Assembly (NCBI GenBank): GCA_963169695.1
Contig: CAUJDS010000063.1
Span: forward strand, 1 to 64,000
Direction: 5' to 3'
DNA: 64,000 bases
Source: Bdellovibrionota bacterium
GTDB taxonomy: Bacteria; Bdellovibrionota; UBA1018; CAUJDS01
How positions within the stretch are numbered: the stretch's first letter is position 1; the number at the start of each line of letters is the position of its first letter. The notes below the pieces were generated by a model. The model was not told the DNA's origin, did not search any database, and was given only the letters and a program-made list of their open reading frames with translations. A program made the translations under genes and the position numbers. Positions 5,879 through 41,006 of the stretch are shown here, in pieces.

Positions 5879-5944
5879 TCCGTAGGACGAATAATCAATC
5901 TCGATAGGGCTTGTTCAATAAGCATCAATCCAGAGTTAGTGCAA

Positions 5945-6021
5945 CCCCAGCAAGGCGGGTTTGAAGCAAGGAAGCCCATACGGGATGACAGGAAGAAGAC
6001 TCAGCGAGGGGGGGGGTCGCC
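5945..6021 (+). repeat. Border repeat, left end of HNH element copy 1
   Basis: Holds CCCCAGCAAGGCGGGTTTGA at 5945-5964, then GGATGACAGG and TCAGCGAGG with a long G run. It matches the reversed sequence at 7419-7494 and the forward sequence at 20187-20260, with a more divergent middle. Confidence 0.7.
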
Positions 6022-6066
6022 TAAGAAAGGCTCCTACGAGTACAAGTGCGCAGCGATCATTAAAAC

Positions 6067-7026
6067 TCACCCGCTACTTTGATAATGTTCCAATCGATGA
6101 TGGGCGCTGCAAAGCAAAGTAAGATTCTCTAACCTATTGGTTCCACCCTTTGCTACTGGAAGCTTGTGATGAAAGTGTAAGAACCTTTCTTTGTCACATC
6201 GAAGCTGGGTCCTAGGGTCTTGATAGGTGCACTGATGTGCATTCTTGATAATCACTTCGTGTTTGATGCCGGCTGGGATGGGGATTCGGCCTTTCGTTTG
6301 AATCTTGGTTATAGGCTTATCTATAGGCCTAAGATTCAATTCAGAATTTCTAGCAGCTGCGTCAAATTCTCGTACTGTACGACGGGATTGTTCTACCGAC
6401 TCGGGAGCTTTGCTTTTTCGAACTTCATGACGCTTGGCTTTTTCTTTTGGGTCTTTGTGCTGAAGGTAAAACTCTACGACTTGTTCCAAGGTCTCTGCTA
6501 AACCCACCCACTTCTTTTGCGACTCAGAGACTCGGTCTTGGGCCCGGCGGATTTTTTCCATGACTTCTTTTGGCAGGCACAAAGCAAGCGCAGCCTGCGT
6601 AGCATTGATCACCCGAGCACGCTCTTCGATGCTTGGAATCTTGGGGCATTCCTTGGCGAGCGCTTCTTGGAGCTTCTCTCTTGGCATGGCTTGCGCAAGT
6701 GCAATGAACTTCTGAGAATTTTCTTTCGTCAAATGGGGAGCGATCTGCCTGGCTTTACTCAGAGGAAGCACTCCCATTTGTACTGCGTGCTTTAGCTCTG
6801 GTACGGCTTTGGACTTATGAACAATGGTAACAAGGTTCCAGCTGACATCTCGAGAGAGACCAAGTGCCTTTTGCGAATACTCAGTCAGGCTTGCATAGCC
6901 TTGCTTAAGATAGACCTTCTTGGCGTCAATCTTCACAAGGATTTCTAAAAGTGCTTTCTCGCAGGCAAGGTATTGCCTAGAGAGTTTCAAAGCTTGATCG
7001 TGGAGAGAACAAAGCAGCTGTGACAT
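6067..7026 (-). CDS. HNH endonuclease domain protein, copy 1
   Basis: A 319-residue protein. Residues 1-200 are helical and charged with a repeated-helix look (SLTEYSQKALGLSRDVSWNL; KARQIAPHLTKENSQKF), likely for DNA binding or dimerisation. Residues 205-245 form a basic variable linker. Residues 250-319 form a zinc-containing HNH nuclease fold: C-T-Y-Q-D-P near a second C, then FHHKLPVAKGGTNRLENLTL and L-C-S-A-H-H-R-L-E-H. The gene lies inside an element with inverted borders, and a close homologue sits inverted at 20716-21663. The two proteins are nearly identical up to the linker and differ by substitutions and a short length change there. No toxin or immunity partner is adjacent. Substrate unknown; homing or a repeat-borne nuclease is the best guess. 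Confidence 0.85.
   Translation of the reverse strand: MSQLLCSLHDQALKLSRQYLACEKALLEILVKIDAKKVYLKQGYASLTEYSQKALGLSRDVSWNLVTIVHKSKAVPELKHAVQMGVLPLSKARQIAPHLTKENSQKFIALAQAMPREKLQEALAKECPKIPSIEERARVINATQAALALCLPKEVMEKIRRAQDRVSESQKKWVGLAETLEQVVEFYLQHKDPKEKAKRHEVRKSKAPESVEQSRRTVREFDAAARNSELNLRPIDKPITKIQTKGRIPIPAGIKHEVIIKNAHQCTYQDPRTQLRCDKERFLHFHHKLPVAKGGTNRLENLTLLCSAHHRLEHYQSSG
6370..6382. promoter_or_regulatory. Palindrome TCGTACTGTACGA inside the HNH gene, copy 1
   Basis: A perfect 13-base palindrome around a central T, lying in the linker-coding part of the HNH gene. The surrounding 22 bases (CAAATTC before, CG and G-rich after) resemble those around the palindrome at 7339-7349 in the gene's upstream region. 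Possible recognition or operator site. Confidence 0.5.
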
Positions 7027-7159
7027 TGGAGAGTTCCTTTCGACGAATAGGAACTTACCACGGGTTTGACGGCGCGATTTTTATCGCTACTTTAGACGCT
7101 AATGCGTTTCATTCTTAAAATAAAGATCCTCCCCATAAAATGAACATTTCCCGCTCTGA

Positions 7160-7225
7160 ATGAAAGCGGGAAGCCTTAGCATCGTGATAAAAGAATTTGA
7201 GCAATTTTCGAAAAGAAACAAATGA
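7160..7225 (+). CDS. Possible 21-residue divergent peptide of the HNH element
   Basis: A short frame divergent from the HNH gene: M-K-A-G-S-L-S-I-V-I-K-E-F-E-Q-F-S-K-R-N-K. The same N-terminus (MKAGGLSIVIKKVEQFSK) opens a 65-residue frame on the minus strand at 20582-20385 in copy 2, so the coding pattern is partly kept. No Shine-Dalgarno sequence is evident. It may be a real small protein, a decayed gene, or just conserved DNA. Confidence 0.25.
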   Translation: MKAGSLSIVIKEFEQFSKRNK

Positions 7226-7338
7226 AACTAATTTTCAAGGCGCCAAGAAGAAAATCACCTGTATTTCATTTTGCACTCACAGCGAAGTCACAATCGGAAA
7301 AGCTAACTATGCTGCAGGCTTTCTGTGTATCAAATTCC

Positions 7339-7349
7339 CGTACAGTACG
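7339..7349. promoter_or_regulatory. Palindrome CGTACAGTACG upstream of HNH copy 1
   Basis: Eleven-base perfect palindrome about 310 bases upstream of the HNH start. The equivalent place in copy 2 (20355-20371) has a longer perfect version, CATCGTACTGTACGATG. The same core also occurs inside both HNH genes. Conservation in two copies at two sites each suggests a protein-binding site. Confidence 0.5.
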
Positions 7350-7418
7350 ACGAGGCGGTACCTTTCAGTTCCTAGTGCTAATTCGCTAGTATACATATTA
7401 TAAATGTATTTAATCAAG

Positions 7419-7494
7419 GCACCCCCCGCCCCCCTCGCTGTTCCCCCCTGTCATCCATCGCTCACTTCCGGGAATCAAACCCGCCTTGCTGGGG
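7419..7494 (-). repeat. Border repeat, right end of HNH element copy 1
   Basis: Reverse complement of the border motif: TCAAACCCGCCTTGCTGGGG at 7475-7494, preceded by CTGTCATCC and CCCCTCGCTG. It faces the border at 5945-6021 and is the better match to the copy 2 border at 20187-20260. Confidence 0.7.
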
Positions 7495-7835
7495 CTGGTT
7501 TGTTTCGGGTGATACCTTCCGCAAACTTCGAGGACTTTCTCCATGAAGCATTATTTTCAACGTTCATTACGGAGACCTGGCCAAAATTGTCACCCTGGCC
7601 AAGGGATAGGCATGAATGAGAGAGCGGACAAATGCTTCGCCACTTTGTCCCTGTCGCACACTGACCATGAGGCTGACACCCCCGACTACAATCTACGGTA
7701 AGTACGAGCGTTTTTGGCGTAAGCCTCCTAAGCAATACTGCCCAAAATCTCAACAAGATATCGAGGATTAGCTTCATTATTTCAATAGCTTAAGCATGCC
7801 TCTTGCATGGTTAGGTAGTGGGGATACAGGGGTTT
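7495..7835. other. Non-coding stretch before the lipoprotein operon
   Basis: No convincing gene. It holds a short duplicated CTGGCCAA near 7580-7603 and a 7-bp perfect hairpin (GGACAAA at 7626-7632 with TTTGTCC at 7644-7650). It must contain the promoter of the following lipoprotein genes, but I cannot place a clear -35/-10 pair. Confidence 0.5.
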
Positions 7836-20371: not shown

Positions 20372-20715
20372 AAGGCTTGCTACCCTAGATGCCTGAAGTG
20401 AAGCTGAGGCGACCACGACGAGAGAAAAGGGCAAGCTTACCGTACCGATTGTGACTTGGTTGTGAGTGCAAAATAAAATGCAGTCTATTTTTTTCTTGGC
20501 GCATTGAAAAGCAGTTTCCTCTTTTACTCTTCGAGAATTGCTCGACCTTTTTTATCACGATGCTAAGGCCTCCGGCTTTCATTCAGAGCTGAGCATTTTC
20601 ATTTCATGGGGTGGATCTTAATTTTAAGTATGAAACGCATGAGCAGCTAAAGCAGCGAGAATAATCGCGCCGTCAAACCCGTGGTAAGTTCCTCCTCGTT
20701 GAAAGGAACTCTCCT

Positions 20716-21663
20716 ATGTCACACTTACTTTGCTCTCTCCACGATCAAGCCTTGAAACTCTCAAGACAGTACCTTGCTTGCGAGAAAGAACTTTTAGAAA
20801 TCCTTGTAAAGATTGACGCCAAGAAAGTCTATCTTGAACAAGGCTATGCAAGCCTGACTGAGTATTCGCAAAAGGCTCTTGGTCTTTCTCGAGATGTCAG
20901 CTGGAACCTTGTTACTATTGTTCATAAATCCAAAGCCGTACCAGAGCTTAAGCACGCGGTGCAAATGGGAGTAATTCCTCTCAGTAAAGCCAGGCAGATC
21001 GCCCCCCATTTGACGAAAGAGAATTCTCAGAAGTTTATCGCACTTGCTCAGGCCATGCCAAGAGAGAAGCTCCAAGAGGCGCTCGCCAAAGAATGCCCCA
21101 TGATTCCAAGCGTGGAAGAGCGTGCCCGGGTGATCAATGCTACGCAGGCTGAGCTTTCCTTGTGTCTGCCAAAAGAAGTCATGGAAAAAATCCGCCGAGC
21201 CCAAGACCGAGTGTCGGAGTCGCAGAAGAAGTGGGTGGGCTTAGCAGAGACATTGGAGCAAGTTGTGGAATTTTACCTTCAACACAAAGACCCAAAAGAA
21301 AAAGCCAAGCGCCATGAAGTTCGAAAGATCAGAGCAACTGTGAAGGCAGCCCAACCCCGTCGTACAGTACGAGAATTTAACGCGGCCGAGAAAAAGCTTG
21401 AATGGGGTTCAAAATCCTTGCCAATAGTCCAGACCAAGGACCGAGTCCCAATCCCTGCAGAGATTAAACATGAGGTCGTTAACAAAAACGCTCATCGGTG
21501 TACCTATCAAGATCCTAGGACCCAGCTTCGATGTGAGAAGGAAAGATTCTTACACTTTCATCACAAGCTTCCGGTAGCAATGGGTGGAACCAATGCGCTA
21601 GAAAATCTTACTTTGCTTTGTAGCGCCCATCATCGATTGGAGCATTATCAAAGTAGCGGGTGA
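20716..21663 (+). CDS. HNH endonuclease domain protein, copy 2
   Basis: A 315-residue homologue of the protein at 6067-7026, preceded by GAAAGGAACTCTCCT. Residues 1-200 are nearly identical to copy 1; the linker at 205-242 differs and is four residues shorter. The HNH part again has C-T-Y-Q-D-P, FHHKLPVAMGGTNALENLTL and L-C-S-A-H-H-R-L-E-H, so the nuclease centre is intact. Changes concentrated in the linker and silent changes elsewhere suggest that both copies have been kept functional. The palindrome TCGTACAGTACGA lies in its linker-coding part at 21360-21372. Confidence 0.85.
   Translation: MSHLLCSLHDQALKLSRQYLACEKELLEILVKIDAKKVYLEQGYASLTEYSQKALGLSRDVSWNLVTIVHKSKAVPELKHAVQMGVIPLSKARQIAPHLTKENSQKFIALAQAMPREKLQEALAKECPMIPSVEERARVINATQAELSLCLPKEVMEKIRRAQDRVSESQKKWVGLAETLEQVVEFYLQHKDPKEKAKRHEVRKIRATVKAAQPRRTVREFNAAEKKLEWGSKSLPIVQTKDRVPIPAEIKHEVVNKNAHRCTYQDPRTQLRCEKERFLHFHHKLPVAMGGTNALENLTLLCSAHHRLEHYQSSG
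21360..21372. promoter_or_regulatory. Palindrome TCGTACAGTACGA inside the HNH gene, copy 2
   Basis: Same 13-base palindrome and same place as 6370-6382 in copy 1, encoding R-R-T-V-R-E of the linker. It is kept although the codons around it have changed between the copies. Confidence 0.5.
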
Positions 21664-21827
21664 GATTTTGATGATCGCTGCGCACTTGTACTCGTAGGCG
21701 CCTTTCTAAGGCGACCCCCCTCAACAATCGCTACGGAGCCCCACGGTAAATCCGCTCTTACTGCCATTTAACGCATAAGACCAAAATATCAAACCATCCC
21801 AGTGAAATCATGATAGTGGATTGCGCT

Positions 21828-33593: not shown

Positions 33594-34943
33594 ATGGATG
33601 CGTCAAGCTCGCCAGATTCTTGGCTGGATTATGCGGTCCGCAAGATTCGAAGTCGTTGCTCCGATCGCTTTGAGATTTATTTCGAGACCAGGCGTGGTCT
33701 ACAAATCGATGCGCGTAACCAAAAAATTGACAGCTTTTTAAGGTCTGAAGATCAAGGAATTGCCTTTCGAATCCTAAGAAAAGGAAGGATTGGATTCAGC
33801 TTCAGCACTCAGCTATCTCATTCGTCTATTGATCAAGCCATCGAGTCTGCCATTCAAGTCGGCACTCACCTTCCAGAAGATCGCTATGCCTCTCTTTTTC
33901 ATTTTAATACCGCCGTCTATCCAGAAATAATGCAGAGGGACAAAAAAGGGCTCGAGCGCGGCGTCGACGAAAAGACCAAACTAGCTCTCACCCTCGAGCA
34001 AGCTTGTCGCGACGCAGACCCTCGCGTGACAACGGTTCGAAGTGCAAGCTATCGCGAATCCGAAATGGCCATAACCCTGGTCGATGACTCGGGTGAGCGC
34101 ATCCAATACGATGCAACGCGGTTTTCACTCTCAACGGTTTGCAAAGCAGAGTCCAAGGGTGAAGCCCAGACAGGATATGACTTTGCTTTTTCGTGGGACC
34201 TTTCGGACCTGGAGCCAATGAGTGTTGGAAAAGGCGCCGCCGCAGATGCCACTCTATTATTGAATGCGACGGGACCTCAGACCAAGTCGGTACCAGTAGT
34301 GCTCACCAATCGCGTGATGGGTCAAATGATGGATCTCTTGGCTCCCAGTTTTTCTGCGGAGAACATCGACAAGAAAAAGAGCATGTTGGTGGACCGCAAG
34401 GGCCAAAGGATAGCTTCTGAAGCCCTGACATTAATGGATGACGGCCTCTATCCAGGGGGGTATTCGAGCGTGCCTTTTGACGCGGAGGGAATTCCTTCTC
34501 AGAAAACCACACTCATCGACCACGGACATTTTGAGTCTGCGCTCTATGACATCAGTGCCGCCGCCAAAGCAGGTTGCGAGCCTACGTCTAGCTCCAGTCG
34601 ATCGCTGCAATCAGCGCCACACTTGGATCACTCCAATCTCTATATTGAACCCGGAAAAAAGAGCATGGCGGAACTGATGAGTCCCATTGAAGATGGCATC
34701 CTCATCACTCACCTTATGGGCCTTCATACGGCCAATGCCATTACGGGTGATTTCTCTTTGGGCGCCAATGGCGTGAGGATTCAAAAAGGAAAGCTTGCGG
34801 AGCCCGTCCGTGGATTTGCCATCGCAGGAAACCTCCTTACCCTCCTTCAGCGCGTCACTGAATTCGGTAGCGATCTGCGATTCTTTGGATCTACAGGCGC
34901 GCCATCCGCCTTTATTTCTGAGCTCTCCATCGGGGGCCGCTAA
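33594..34943 (+). CDS. pmbA: TldD/PmbA family metalloprotease-like protein
   Basis: A 449-residue protein. The frame is open far upstream inside prkA on the other strand, but the ATG at 33594 gives the normal PmbA length and start (SWLDYAVRKI, then FEIYFETRRGLQI). Landmarks are LRSEDQGIAFRIL, a central VVLTNRVMGQMMDLLAPSFSAE and the conserved end FSLGANGVRIQKGKLAEPV, I-A-G-N-L, G-S-D-L-R-F-F-G-S-T. TldD-PmbA pairs process small peptides in some bacteria. The TldD partner with its HExxxH motif is not in the window. Stop overlaps the next start (TAATG). Confidence 0.88.
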   Translation: MDASSSPDSWLDYAVRKIRSRCSDRFEIYFETRRGLQIDARNQKIDSFLRSEDQGIAFRILRKGRIGFSFSTQLSHSSIDQAIESAIQVGTHLPEDRYASLFHFNTAVYPEIMQRDKKGLERGVDEKTKLALTLEQACRDADPRVTTVRSASYRESEMAITLVDDSGERIQYDATRFSLSTVCKAESKGEAQTGYDFAFSWDLSDLEPMSVGKGAAADATLLLNATGPQTKSVPVVLTNRVMGQMMDLLAPSFSAENIDKKKSMLVDRKGQRIASEALTLMDDGLYPGGYSSVPFDAEGIPSQKTTLIDHGHFESALYDISAAAKAGCEPTSSSSRSLQSAPHLDHSNLYIEPGKKSMAELMSPIEDGILITHLMGLHTANAITGDFSLGANGVRIQKGKLAEPVRGFAIAGNLLTLLQRVTEFGSDLRFFGSTGAPSAFISELSIGGR

Positions 34944-35686
34944 TGGAATTTAAGGTAGGGTTTCGAACAGATATCGGCATGCGCCGACAGCAGAATCAGG
35001 ACAACGGCGTTTACAAAACGGACCTCGGTCTATTTATGGTTGCTGACGGAATGGGCGGCCACAAGGGTGGAGAAACAGCAAGCCAGATCGTAGTCGACAC
35101 CGTTCCGCGTGCCATAGAATCATCCATGAAAAACACCCGCGATTGGAATCCCACTGCCGCAATCATTCAGGCAATCTACCAATCCAATGAAGTTATTTTT
35201 CAGCGATCACAGCGCGACAAGAACCTTACCGGGATGGGGACGACCACTACCGCGCTTCTTTTTAAAAATGAACTCCTCACCGTTGGTCATGTTGGCGATA
35301 GTCGTTGCTATTTTTTTCAACGAGGAGCTTGCTGGCAAATTACGCGTGATCATTCCTTGGTAGAAGAAAAACTGCGTGCAGGGCTTATCACTCGCGAGCA
35401 ACTGCGTACCGATCAAATGAAAAATGTCATTACGCGCTCGGTTGGATTTGAGCCGGATCTTGAAGTAGACACTTATGAAATGAGTGTGTCTAAGGGCGAT
35501 GTCTTCATGCTCTGCTCAGACGGGCTTTCGGGCATGGTGGAAAATGAAGAAATTCAGACCATCATCGAAAAAAATTGCTTTGAAGATCATATGATTCAGG
35601 CGGCTGCTGACGGACTTGTTCAGGCTGCTAACAATAATGGTGGTGACGATAATATCACGGTGATCGTTATCCAGGTAGGGAGTTAG
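34943..35686 (+). CDS. PP2C-family serine/threonine phosphatase
   Basis: A 247-residue soluble phosphatase with the standard metal-binding motifs: RRQQNQDNG, VADGMGGHKGGE, GDSRCYFF, CSDGLSGM and G-G-D-D-N-I-T-V. It removes phosphate from Ser/Thr residues. An FHA protein in the 2.2 kb operon suggests that Thr phosphorylation is used in this organism, but no Hanks-type kinase is seen in this window. Coupled to the pmbA-like gene and six bases from the M23 peptidase gene. Confidence 0.94.
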   Translation: MEFKVGFRTDIGMRRQQNQDNGVYKTDLGLFMVADGMGGHKGGETASQIVVDTVPRAIESSMKNTRDWNPTAAIIQAIYQSNEVIFQRSQRDKNLTGMGTTTTALLFKNELLTVGHVGDSRCYFFQRGACWQITRDHSLVEEKLRAGLITREQLRTDQMKNVITRSVGFEPDLEVDTYEMSVSKGDVFMLCSDGLSGMVENEEIQTIIEKNCFEDHMIQAAADGLVQAANNNGGDDNITVIVIQVGS

Positions 35687-35692
35687 AAGTTC

Positions 35693-36685
35693 ATGGCCAA
35701 TCGTTTTTTTACGGTTCTTGTTATTCCAGAGAAGACTTCCAAAATTCGCCGATGGGTTGTTCCAAGTTGGATTATGAAAGCTGGGATTGTCGTGGGCTTA
35801 TTCTTGGCAATCCTCGGTGCGATGATGTTCCTCGACTACTGGTACGTCATGAATCAAATCAACGTCAACAATGACCTCAAAGTTGAAAATCGACGCCTCC
35901 GCCAGCAGGTTCAAATCTATAAGAATAAAATGCAAACCATTGAAGGCACGATGGATCGCATTCGAACCTTCACGACTCGTCTAAAGGTCATCACCAATAT
36001 TGAAGACCGTGAGAGCCTTGTTCAAAAGCTGGATCAAAAATTACCAGACTCGGCGTCCAACGTGGGCACACCTGCCAATGCCAAATCCGAGGCTGGAAAT
36101 GAACAGGTGGATTTGGACCTCACGCATTTTTATGAAACGGCAAACCAGAAAGACCCGGAGTACTTGAGGCTTCAGCGAGAACACGGCGAGCTGGAAGAGA
36201 TGTTTCGGGACTCTAATATGAATACGCTCTTGGTCGAGCAAGAGTTGCAAGACCTCTACGAGCTCCTCGTGGACCAAAAAGCGTTTCTATCAGCGCTTCC
36301 CACCATTCGGCCCGCCATTGGCTACTTCACATCCGGATTCGGTGTCCGCAAGTCACCCTACGGAGCCGGGGTCAAAATGCATGAGGGCCTCGACATTGCC
36401 AACCACATTGGGACGGTCATCCGCACAACGGCGACGGGAGTCGTCAAATTTGCCGGCCAAAAGCCAGGATACGGCAAGACGGTGATCATCGATCACGGCT
36501 ACGGGCTCGAAACCTGGTACGGCCACGCTAAGCAGCTTTTTGTAAAAAAAGGCGAGCAGGTATCGCGAGGCCAGCGCATTTCGGCTATCGGCAATAGCGG
36601 CTGGTCAACCGGACCCCACGTCCACTATGAAGTCAGAGTCCATGGGATTCCCGTGGATCCGCTCTCCTACATTCTGGAAGACTAG
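35693..36685 (+). CDS. Membrane-anchored M23 family peptidase
   Basis: A 330-residue protein. One membrane helix lies near residues 24-48 (IMKAGIVVGLFLAILGAMMFLDYWYV), followed by a coiled coil (NNDLKVENRRLRQQVQIYKN) and a spacer. The M23 domain spans about residues 205-325: GFGVRKSPYGAGVKMHEGLD holds the first zinc His and Asp, and HVHYEVRV the last His pair. It is expected to cut peptidoglycan peptides in the periplasm. It ends P-L-S-Y-I-L-E-D; the same eight residues plus stop reappear in decayed form at 38128-38172, after the fic gene. Confidence 0.93.
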   Translation: MANRFFTVLVIPEKTSKIRRWVVPSWIMKAGIVVGLFLAILGAMMFLDYWYVMNQINVNNDLKVENRRLRQQVQIYKNKMQTIEGTMDRIRTFTTRLKVITNIEDRESLVQKLDQKLPDSASNVGTPANAKSEAGNEQVDLDLTHFYETANQKDPEYLRLQREHGELEEMFRDSNMNTLLVEQELQDLYELLVDQKAFLSALPTIRPAIGYFTSGFGVRKSPYGAGVKMHEGLDIANHIGTVIRTTATGVVKFAGQKPGYGKTVIIDHGYGLETWYGHAKQLFVKKGEQVSRGQRISAIGNSGWSTGPHVHYEVRVHGIPVDPLSYILED

Positions 36686-36830
36686 TCCCTATGACTGCGT
36701 CATTGATCCAAGCCTAAAAGGCACCTAGGCGGATCAGGCAAGGTTAACTATGGGCTTTCATAATTAACTTTTTATCATTAAGATTAAATAAGAAAAAATC
36801 GAGACAAAATCCGTCTAGGATCGAATTTCT

Positions 36831-38108
36831 ATGAAAAGGGACGAGCTAGCTCCTGCTCTCAAAGCACTCTATACAAAGGGTCGCCCGTGTGGAGTAGAAA
36901 AGTGTAAGAAAAAGGGCTTCGAAAACCTATGGTTTGTTGTACCCCCTTCTCCACCGGACAAGCTTCCTCCGGCTATGCCTGCCGGTAGCATTGCCAAAGC
37001 CCTGCGTGCACTAGAGCAGATGCCTAAGTTCAGCGAATCCAGCGACCTCGATAAAATCGTTTCATTTCTTTTTTTGCGTCGTGAAGCAGTGCAGTCTTCT
37101 CGAATGGAGGGAACGTGGTCGACCGTAGACCATGTCCTTACTCCCGGTTCAGTCTACGACAACGAAGAAGGCGCCTCCGAGCGAGCCTCCGTCCTCGGAT
37201 ATGCACGAGCTTTGGAAAAAGAGTTTAAGAGTGCTTTTGAGCGCGGAGTGGAAGTCTTCACGCCAGCGTTAGTCAGTAGGCTTCATCTGGAAGTCATGAG
37301 TAAGGATCTTGGGTATCAAGGCAGACCTGGGGAGATACGCAGGCCTGGAAGGGCAGGCTCTATCGTATTTATTGGCGGACTGAGACGAAAAGAAGAGTCT
37401 ATTTACAACCCTGTTCTCCCAAAGCATGTAGCTCGGTGCCTTAGGGAAATCCTCGCCTGGATGTCAAGAAAGGCGGTCATCGAGATGGGAGATGCTGGAA
37501 TGGGCTTACCCCTTCCAGTCCGAATGGCCATCGGGCACTCACATTTTGAGGCCGTACATCCATTCTCAGATGGCAATGGCCGAGTCGGCCGAATGCTTTT
37601 GGCGATCCAAATGGTCTGTCACCGCAGCCTGCCGCTTTATCTTTCTGGATACATGGAAGCCGAGAAGCGAGACTATATTCTTGCCCTACAAAACGCACAG
37701 AAAAAGCTCAAGTACGGCTTGATTGTTGAGTTCATTTGCGCTGCAATTGAGGCTTCTTTTCGTGAGGCAAGCGAAACGAAGACCGCGATCCTTCAGCTAC
37801 CTGAACAGTGGGCCCGGCGTGGTGAGTTTAGGGATGGATCGGCGGCAAAACGCGCGCTGCACGTTCTATTGAACCATCCCATCTTCACTACGAAGGATTT
37901 AATGCGCTTGCTGAAAGTCAGTTCTCCGGCGGCCAATCGCGCGGTTACGCAGCTTGTTCACTCAAAGATTGCTCGGGAGCGCACAGGCCATGGACGCAAT
38001 CGAGTCTTCGCAGCAGAGGAGGTTATTGAGCTGCTTTCTCGACGATTTGGCGATGGTCCGAGTGAGGCCCTTCAAAGGGCTAGGGACTTGTTGAAACTCA
38101 ATCGATAG
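36831..38108 (+). CDS. Fic family protein with N-terminal inhibitory motif and C-terminal winged helix
   Basis: A 425-residue Fic protein that would transfer AMP (or another nucleotide part) to target proteins. The Fic core has HPFSDGNGRVGRML near residues 243-256, matching the canonical HxFx(D/E)GNGRxxR with the catalytic His. A self-inhibitory (S/T)xxxE(G/N) motif is seen near residues 89-95 (SSRMEG), so it is a class II Fic regulated in cis. The last 80 residues form a winged-helix domain (FTTKDLMRLLKVSSPAANRAV), common in this type. The 145-base leader is AT-rich. It is flanked by the M23 gene and by a copy of that gene's end, suggesting insertion between M23 and secA. Confidence 0.9.
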   Translation: MKRDELAPALKALYTKGRPCGVEKCKKKGFENLWFVVPPSPPDKLPPAMPAGSIAKALRALEQMPKFSESSDLDKIVSFLFLRREAVQSSRMEGTWSTVDHVLTPGSVYDNEEGASERASVLGYARALEKEFKSAFERGVEVFTPALVSRLHLEVMSKDLGYQGRPGEIRRPGRAGSIVFIGGLRRKEESIYNPVLPKHVARCLREILAWMSRKAVIEMGDAGMGLPLPVRMAIGHSHFEAVHPFSDGNGRVGRMLLAIQMVCHRSLPLYLSGYMEAEKRDYILALQNAQKKLKYGLIVEFICAAIEASFREASETKTAILQLPEQWARRGEFRDGSAAKRALHVLLNHPIFTTKDLMRLLKVSSPAANRAVTQLVHSKIARERTGHGRNRVFAAEEVIELLSRRFGDGPSEALQRARDLLKLNR

Positions 38109-38127
38109 GCTGCTTGTTGGGACTAGA

Positions 38128-38172
38128 CCCATTGGTCTGGTAGGTCCGCTCAGCTATATTCTGGAAGATTGA
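38128..38172 (+). pseudogene. Remnant of an M23 peptidase gene 3' end
   Basis: Reads P-I-G-L-V-G-P-L-S-Y-I-L-E-D-stop, ending like the intact M23 protein at 36685. In the last nine codons every DNA difference is silent: TCC/AGC for Ser, TAC/TAT, GAC/GAT and stop TAG/TGA. This pattern fits an old diverged gene copy whose front part has been lost, not chance. Confidence 0.6.
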
Positions 38173-38249
38173 ACGTGACATCGATTCACCAGATAGCTAA
38201 ACTGAAAAAATCTCGATAACAAACTTATTTAGTAGGTCTTTTAGAATCC

Positions 38250-41006
38250 ATGCTGGGACTTGATCAACTCGCGAAGAAACTATTCGGAACTCAAAACGAA
38301 CGAGAACTCAAACGCATTCAACCGCTCGTCGTTCGGACCAATGAACTCGAAGACTCCATGAAGGCCTTAAGCGATGCTCAGCTTCAGGGCAAGACGACGG
38401 AATTTAAAGAACGAGTGGCGCGAGGCGAACACTTGGATCAACTCCTGCCAGAAGCATTTGCGGTAGTACGCGAAGCCGCCTTTCGTGTTTTGAAAATGCG
38501 GCACTACGATGTGCAGCTGATCGGTGGCGCAACCCTACACAGCGGCCGCATCGCAGAAATGAAAACGGGAGAAGGAAAGACCCTCGTCTGTACCCTCCCC
38601 GCCTACCTCAATGCCCTCGCCGGAAAAGGCGTTCATGTCATTACGGTAAACGACTACCTCGCACGTCGTGACACAGAATGGATGGGTCGCGTGTACCGTT
38701 ACCTCGGACTTTCGGTAGGAACCATCGTCCACGGATTGTCCGATCGCCAGCGCAAAGAGAACTACGGTTGCGACATCACCTACGGAACCAATAACGAGTA
38801 CGGATTTGATTACCTTCGCGACAATATGAAGTTTCGGCTCGAGGATTATGTTCAACGCGAGTTGAGCTATGCCATCATCGACGAAGTGGACTCTATTTTG
38901 ATCGACGAGGCGCGGACACCGCTCATTATCAGTGGTCCCGCTGAAGATTCTACTGACCTCTATTACAAGATCGACAAACAAATCACAGCAAGTGGTGGAC
39001 TCACTCCTGAGACCGACTACACCATCGACGAAAAATCCAAGACAGCCTCACTCACCGAATCCGGCGTAGATAAAATGGAAAAGCGCCTCGGAGTTGGCAA
39101 CCTTTACGATCCCCAACATATTGAAGTTCTCCACCACGTCAACCAAGCACTTCGCGCTCACGTCTTATACAAGCGAGATGTGGACTACGTGGTTCGAGAC
39201 GATGAAGTCATGATTGTGGATGAATTCACGGGACGGATGATGCCAGGCAGGCGCTGGTCGGATGGCCTTCATCAAGCCATTGAAGCCAAAGAAGACGTCA
39301 CCATTGAAAACGAGAACCAAACACTCGCTACGATTACATTTCAGAATTATTTTCGAATGTACAAAAAACTCAGCGGCATGACCGGCACCGCGGACACAGA
39401 AGCCAATGAGTTCAAACAGATTTACAACTTAGATGTCACCGTCATCCCCACCAATAGCACCATGGTCCGCAAGGATCAGGCAGACCTTGTTTACAAGGCT
39501 GACACGTCTAAGTACCAAGCTATTGTCAAAGAGATTGAGCGCGTTCACGAAAAAGGTCAGCCCATATTGGTTGGTACGATTTCGGTAGAGAAATCTGAGC
39601 TTATTTCCAGTCACCTCAAACAAAAAGGCATTCGCCACCACGTCCTCAATGCTAAGCAACACGATCGAGAAGCTGAGATCGTGGCACAGGCAGGCCGTAA
39701 GAAGTCCGTCACCATCGCCACCAATATGGCAGGACGAGGAACGGACATCGTTCTGGGCGGAAATCCAGACTCCCTTGCTCGATCGGAAGTGGGTGCCGAC
39801 GCAACTCCTGAGGCCTACGAAGAAACTCTCAAAAAATGGAATGCGGCATGCAACCAAGAAAAGCAGGAAGTCCTTGCAGCAGGCGGACTCTTTATTCTCG
39901 GTACCGAACGGCATGAATCCCGCCGTATCGACAATCAACTTCGCGGACGATCAGGTCGACAGGGCGATCCCGGAGAAAGTCGATTCTACCTTTCACTCGA
40001 CGACGACCTCATGCGAATTTTTGGTGGATCCAATATCAAGAAATTCATGGAGGACGACCTCCCGATTGAACACCGCTGGATCACTCGCGCGATCGAGAAC
40101 GCTCAGCGCAAGGTAGAGGCGCACAATTACGATATTCGAAAGCACCTCCTCAAATACGATGACGTCATGAACGAACAGCGCAAAGTCATCTACGGCATGC
40201 GCAAAGAAGTCCTCGGAAGCGAGAGCCTTCGAGAGATGATTTTCTCCATGGTGGACGAACTTGCCACCGTAGTGGCCTTTGATTTTTTTCCAAATGGCAA
40301 ACTTCCGCGGGGCAATGGTCACCAAGGCCTCAATATGAAGGAACTCAATGACGCGATTGAAGTGACGTTTCAGATCCGATCGCCGATCACAGAGAATGAA
40401 ATTGATCCTTTTACAGGCGACGGCCTAAAGGCACTTATTGTACGCAAGGCTGAAGCCGCGTATCAGGCCAAAGAATCTCAATACGGACCCGAACTCGTCC
40501 GCCAAGTAGAAAAGATGATTCTACTTTCCACCATCGACTCGCTCTGGAAAGACCACCTCCTTGCTATGGACCAACTTCGCGACGGAATTGGATTGCGTGG
40601 CTACGGACAAAAAGATCCACTGATGGAGTACAAAAAAGAGGGATTTCGATTCTTCGAAATGATGATGCATCAAATTACCGGGGACGTCGTACGCAAAGCC
40701 TTTGCCGTGCAGATGGCCAGCGACGATCCTTCGTTTGAAGATTTTGAAATGGAACAACCTCGCCAGATGCAAATGAACGTCAGCGCAGATGGCGAACTCA
40801 TTGCGCCTACTCCCAAGACAGATCTGCCGGCAGCGGAGCTTCCGCAATCAGCAGCCCCTATCCGAGCAGGTGGTCCAGCAATGGGACCACTCGGCCCCTT
40901 GACTCCCATTGCCAAGCCCGTCATTAGCGGAGAGCCAAAAACTGGACGCAATGACCTCTGTCCCTGCGGCAGTGGCAAAAAATATAAGAAATGCCACGGT
41001 CGATAG
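38250..41006 (+). CDS. secA: Preprotein translocase ATPase SecA
   Basis: A 918-residue SecA, the motor that pushes unfolded preproteins through SecYEG. Seen in order: Walker [11 protein letters not shown] near residue 105, [70 protein letters not shown], the helical scaffold ([17 protein letters not shown]), and the C-terminal SEC-C zinc motif [17 protein letters not shown] for SecB and ribosome contact. Length is typical. Preceded by 141 bases that include the M23 remnant and an AT-rich promoter region. Confidence 0.98.

Follow-up and report, generated by a model that had tools for sequence, protein, structure and literature searches.

In a stretch of 64,000 nucleotides of DNA (the window) from a member of the Bdellovibrionota related to the predatory Bdellovibrio, an intact M23 peptidase gene is followed by a fic gene and then, just ahead of secA, by a second and bodiless copy of the last codons of that same peptidase gene. 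The explanation I consider probable is an allele replacement, in which the second copy (27-33 nt) would be a remnant of the resident M23 3' end that has stayed in position, while fic would have come with a divergent donor M23. The window genome is a draft of 2.79 Mb in 82 contigs whose nearest named relatives are metagenome-assembled Bdellovibrionota, and the features concerned are as follows.

34943..35686, + strand: PP2C-type protein phosphatase gene (Pfam PP2C_2, 2e-17), a conserved upstream neighbour that is also near M23 in relatives
35693..36685, + strand: M23 peptidase gene, intact, 330 aa, with the tail HGIPVDPLSYILED before its stop (Pfam Peptidase_M23, 3e-31)
36659..36685, + strand: copy 1, the live last nine M23 codons, PLSYILED-stop (sequence comparison, repeat finder)
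36686..36830, + strand: M23-fic spacer (37% GC) containing an imperfect hairpin (sequence scan)
36831..38108, + strand: fic, 425 aa, Fic_N plus Fic (Pfam, PADLOC, motifs)
38140..38172, + strand: copy 2 (VGPLSYILED-stop), probably the original M23 end in displaced form, without body or start codon (sequence comparison, shuffles)
38173..38249, + strand: 77-nt spacer before secA, within the range of the M23-secA spacers of relatives (comparison with relatives)
38250..41006, + strand: secA (Pfam SecA domains)

Between the two repeats lie only a 145-nt leader and fic, with no recombinase or integrase gene; no terminator-like site was found in the leader (36686..36830), nor any repeat of it elsewhere in the genome, and the spacer before secA contains a weak promoter-like site at 38175-38203. 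The first-pass annotation had reported that the last nine M23 codons recur at 38146-38172 with synonymous changes throughout, and this is confirmed: the live end (36659-36685) reads CCG CTC TCC TAC ATT CTG GAA GAC TAG, the displaced copy reads CCG CTC AGC TAT ATT CTG GAA GAT TGA, and 21 of the 27 bases are identical, the six differences all being silent and including both a serine box switch (TCC/AGC) and the change of stop codon from TAG to TGA. Its wording "only silent changes" is right for these nine codons and ceases to be so in the two codons upstream, where GTG/GTA is silent and GAT/GGT replaces Asp by Gly (VD to VG).

The repeat is real, although in the whole-genome DNA search the two ends, which are mutual best non-self matches, reach only an E value of about 0.2, the stretch being very short. 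The repeat finder lists the pair (D3) as 29 nt at 83%, and a chance match was rejected by shuffling, since the local DNA alignment scores 118, where 500 shuffles gave 103 at best, and the tail matches in 9 of 9 residues where the best of 2000 dinucleotide-type shuffles of the 1564-nt spacer reached 6 of 9; it is from the reading frame that the significance comes. Longer homology upstream of VGPLSYILED was rejected (68% of shuffles align as well as the gapped, anchored extension), as was any likeness between the spacers behind the two ends (16% as good). In the open frame of copy 2, which starts at the stop codon at 38092, there is no ATG, GTG or TTG to serve as a start.

Strong M23 matches were found in 51 of 58 related genomes, and in 30 genomes of the same order (26 plus G006, G042, G049 and G054) M23, usually with the tail VDPLSYILEN, is directly followed by secA at a distance of 9 to 128 nt, these empty sites all belonging to distant relatives. 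The stop of copy 2 lies 77 nt from secA, which reproduces the relatives' arrangement minus the gene body, and the copy therefore occupies the place of the old M23 end, supporting fic as the newcomer at this junction. Only 1 of about 35 same-order junctions carries fic, so that the condition named in the first-pass annotation as refuting its reading, fic always being present there, is false; the fic subfamily is sporadic and scattered, occurring in 22 of 369 genomes from the phylum, and at the other fic loci examined the retrieved flanks contained neither M23 nor secA. The proposal that copy 2 is the displaced end of the original gene is upheld by these comparisons. As a separate observation, the M23 before secA in G042 (C292, L219) matches in two adjoining pieces, residues 2-201 and 249-330, and looks internally deleted or frameshifted.

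In four same-order genomes besides the window genome, other inserts lie between M23 and secA or immediately after M23, and the inserts differ among all five: a 304-aa gene in G051, two similar secreted proteins in G009, a 163-aa gene in G037 (after which the contig ends) and, in G026, an insert of 9.8 kb holding about ten genes. In the last of these, the final 137 nt of M23 appear again 2.9 kb downstream, 86% identical over a core of 116 nt; by hand count some 8 of the codon changes are replacing and some 8 silent, and the second His of HxH has become Asn. This second end arose independently of the window case. An extra M23 end accompanies two of the five inserts (window genome and G026). The earlier annotation had named relatives with the spacer and no trace of an M23 copy as evidence against its reading, and this applies in part: G051 and G009 have no M23 remnant, with other inserts in place, and G026 has its independent second end. 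A generalization that I find distinctly doubtful is that single genes without a recombinase repeatedly land, in this group, at the M23 3' end beside secA, each carrying or capturing an M23 end of its own, and so accumulate there while M23 and secA stay unbroken. The repeats at this junction include three direct-repeat pairs (137, 206 and 42 nt) around the M23-secA inserts of G026 (C8:68000-87900, L189, and L190), with more direct repeats in the following 19 kb and inverted repeats not detected in the same scan, and, in G037 (L034 3838-3885), two tandem near-copies of about 15 nt after the M23 LEN-stop region, followed by the 163-aa ORF and not by secA. A general excess of short-range direct over inverted repeats was considered and set aside, the 11 to 0 in relatives coming mostly from G026 and the 23 to 12 in the window genome being unclear and mostly internal or paralogous.

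How the two ends came to differ was approached by simulating one live and one dead copy of the M23 end up to the observed number of differences, in a simple model and on a short stretch that had been chosen by its similarity. Under self-duplication followed by decay, the 8 changes in 33 nt replaced no more than one codon in 0.2% of runs, and within the last nine codons (27 nt) they replaced none in 0.06%; the silent-only pattern is therefore unlikely to come from self-duplication, and most likely each end still belonged to a working gene during the divergence, the two being alleles of separate lineages. The closest relative compared, G037 (63% in M23), ends with AGC, TAT and TGA as copy 2 does, unlike the live end, suggesting a native origin for the displaced copy and a foreign one for the live M23 end, although some diagnostic G037 bases (GTG, and the C of AAC) agree with the live copy. 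Along the gene, M23 identity to relatives shows no clear mosaic, all values lying at 64-74% in the peptidase domain with no same-genus genome among these relatives.

Donor, direction of transfer and recombination route I infer as follows. DNA from a related bacterium would have brought in a divergent M23 allele upstream of fic, to be joined on one side by homologous recombination in or upstream of the resident M23 and on the other by an illegitimate join near a shared TCCGCTC, some 11 codons short of the resident stop, and the product would be a complete M23 (donor or hybrid), fic, the orphaned tip of the old M23, and secA.

Other histories would leave a similar arrangement. If fic had been inserted into the host's own M23 end with a long target duplication of about 30-50 nt, the outer copy decaying afterwards, one would expect just such a lone gene without a recombinase between direct repeats, and such duplication has a precedent (Nobusato et al. 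2000, as cited in PMC1643837 and PMC3031569), while the three direct-repeat pairs at the same junction in G026 and a G045 fic lying between copies of a 38-nt direct repeat speak in the same direction; I nonetheless rate it unlikely, because a freely drifting dead copy should gain replacement changes, the observed pattern being about 0.2% likely or less, and because the 412 kb sampled of the window genome contained no other clear target-duplication case. Integrative elements regenerate the ends of their target genes, with silent changes, and inserts recur at this junction in the window genome, G026, G051, G009 and G037, both of which would suit a recombinase-driven element that targets the M23 3' end and carries a replacement end, its integrase having been lost or acting from elsewhere. 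This I regard as improbable, given that the fic segment has no recombinase and that Pfam detects no such domain in nine scanned ORFs of the G026 insert or in the ORF of the G051 insert, that the G051 and G009 inserts left no M23 remnant, and that the fic orthologues do not share the M23-end target. The first-pass remark that fic arrived "as integrative elements do" is accordingly unproven, since there is neither an integrase nor, elsewhere in the genome, any att-like repetition, and a divergent allele taking the gene's place would account for the silent pattern at least as well.

Silent divergence would also fit two genes that were both once functional, so that copy 2 might be the tip of a tandem M23 paralogue that lost its body, much as the first-pass annotation had offered an "old paralogue"; I consider this very improbable, for no tandem M23 pair was seen in about 90 junctions and the other M23 genes of the window genome, all on other contigs, do not exceed about 42% identity in the peptidase domain. 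Finally, the kept frame and stop might mean that copy 2 was retained for some role, perhaps in translational coupling or as a secA leader, but it has no start codon of its own, the relatives' spacers of 9 to 128 nt reveal no conserved coupling, an Rfam search returned nothing significant, and I attach next to no credence to it. Allele replacement is thus the reading that I carry forward.

Further repeats were seen around genes other than M23. A unit of about 1.5 kb, present at 5942-7497 and about 20700-21700 of the window, has inverted repeats of ~74 nt (CCCCAGCAAGGCGGGTTTGA...) on either side of a gene for an HNH endonuclease (319 aa; minus strand, 6067-7026). At least six related copies of this gene (87-100% aa) occur in about 410 kb of the window genome (L202 twice, L203 and L210), several of them flanked by these inverted repeats as well, and the unit looks mobile. 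Short dispersed repeats such as GGTACGGACTTACTTATGGGAC occur in direct and inverted copies on C8 and C32 of the same genome (L198, L207). In the Halobacteriovorax marinus isolate G101 (C1:1360000-1401000; L186, L168, L187), at least 20 repeats of about 139 nt in the same orientation have one or few genes between them on either strand, including a fic, with no integrase identified, and the arrangement resembles a gene-cassette array. The 38-nt direct repeats around the G045 fic orthologue (L145) lie at 6067-6104 and 7649-7685 and are the only two significant-score copies in that genome, GTTAAC-rich dispersed repeats surround another fic orthologue in G115 (C44, L169; four copies in 9 kb), and G032 (C115, L146 4520-5014) has, along with an intact copy elsewhere, what is probably a pseudogene of the same fic subfamily, 164 aa long. 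The proposition that this subfamily is generally flanked by target duplications was rejected: flanking repeats accompany 3 of 386 ORFs, all of them fic, and with the H. marinus case discounted as an array unit, the fic of G045 remains as one flanked by a direct repeat.

The Fic protein is a probable defence or toxin gene product. Its catalytic motif HPFSDGNGRVGR at residue 243 fits HPFxDGNGRxxR, and SSRMEG at residue 89 fits the N-terminal inhibitory-helix motif (S/T)xxxE(G/N) of class II. These motifs, the combination of Fic_N plus Fic and a match to the PADLOC SoFic profile (3e-60) are shared with Sofic, a class II Fic AMP-transferase (PMC12249575; PDB 3eqx, 7cb8) of a group reported to be anti-phage, whereas the window protein, at 75 bits, falls far short of the NCBIfam equivalog cut-off of 550 bits and has downstream no small antitoxin-like gene that I could see, only the M23 remnant. 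A defence role here may be inferred from these similarities. Phage and plasmid collections contained only distant Fic proteins, below 60% identity.

The locus would then be the trace of a probable defence or toxin gene entering a housekeeping operon with both neighbours undisrupted, and it supplies a cheap search rule for integrase-free gene gains, namely to scan for stray gene ends whose distance to the following gene is the ancestral one. Some integrative elements rebuild the 3' end of the gene that they target, and here likewise the target end is restored and the old end displaced to the far side; unlike them, the fic segment is only 1.5 kb, has no integrase and shows no att sites. Long target duplication, as the papers citing Nobusato et al. 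(2000) describe it for Helicobacter pylori restriction-modification genes, similarly places a single selfish or defence-type gene without a recombinase between direct repeats of the target, as the direct repeats flanking the fic segment do, but the M23 repeat is short (27-33 nt sure) and its divergence silent, pointing to two alleles rather than one target. The closest parallel in form is homology-facilitated illegitimate recombination: for the displaced immunity genes of Vibrio cholerae T6SS effector-immunity arrays, homologous recombination on one side and an illegitimate join have been proposed (PMC5361080), and there, as in Rhs C-terminal displacement, a foreign gene is anchored on one side and the old 3' part is orphaned downstream. 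At the M23-fic locus a foreign segment occupies a conserved junction from which it is absent in 30 same-order genomes, and a resident remnant (38140-38172) persists beyond the join; what differs is that the anchoring gene would be one for a housekeeping peptidase, that fic alone makes up the cargo, that only about 11 codons are left of the old end, and that no donor with M23 then fic was found. The case is explained without new machinery, by a mechanism already known in principle.
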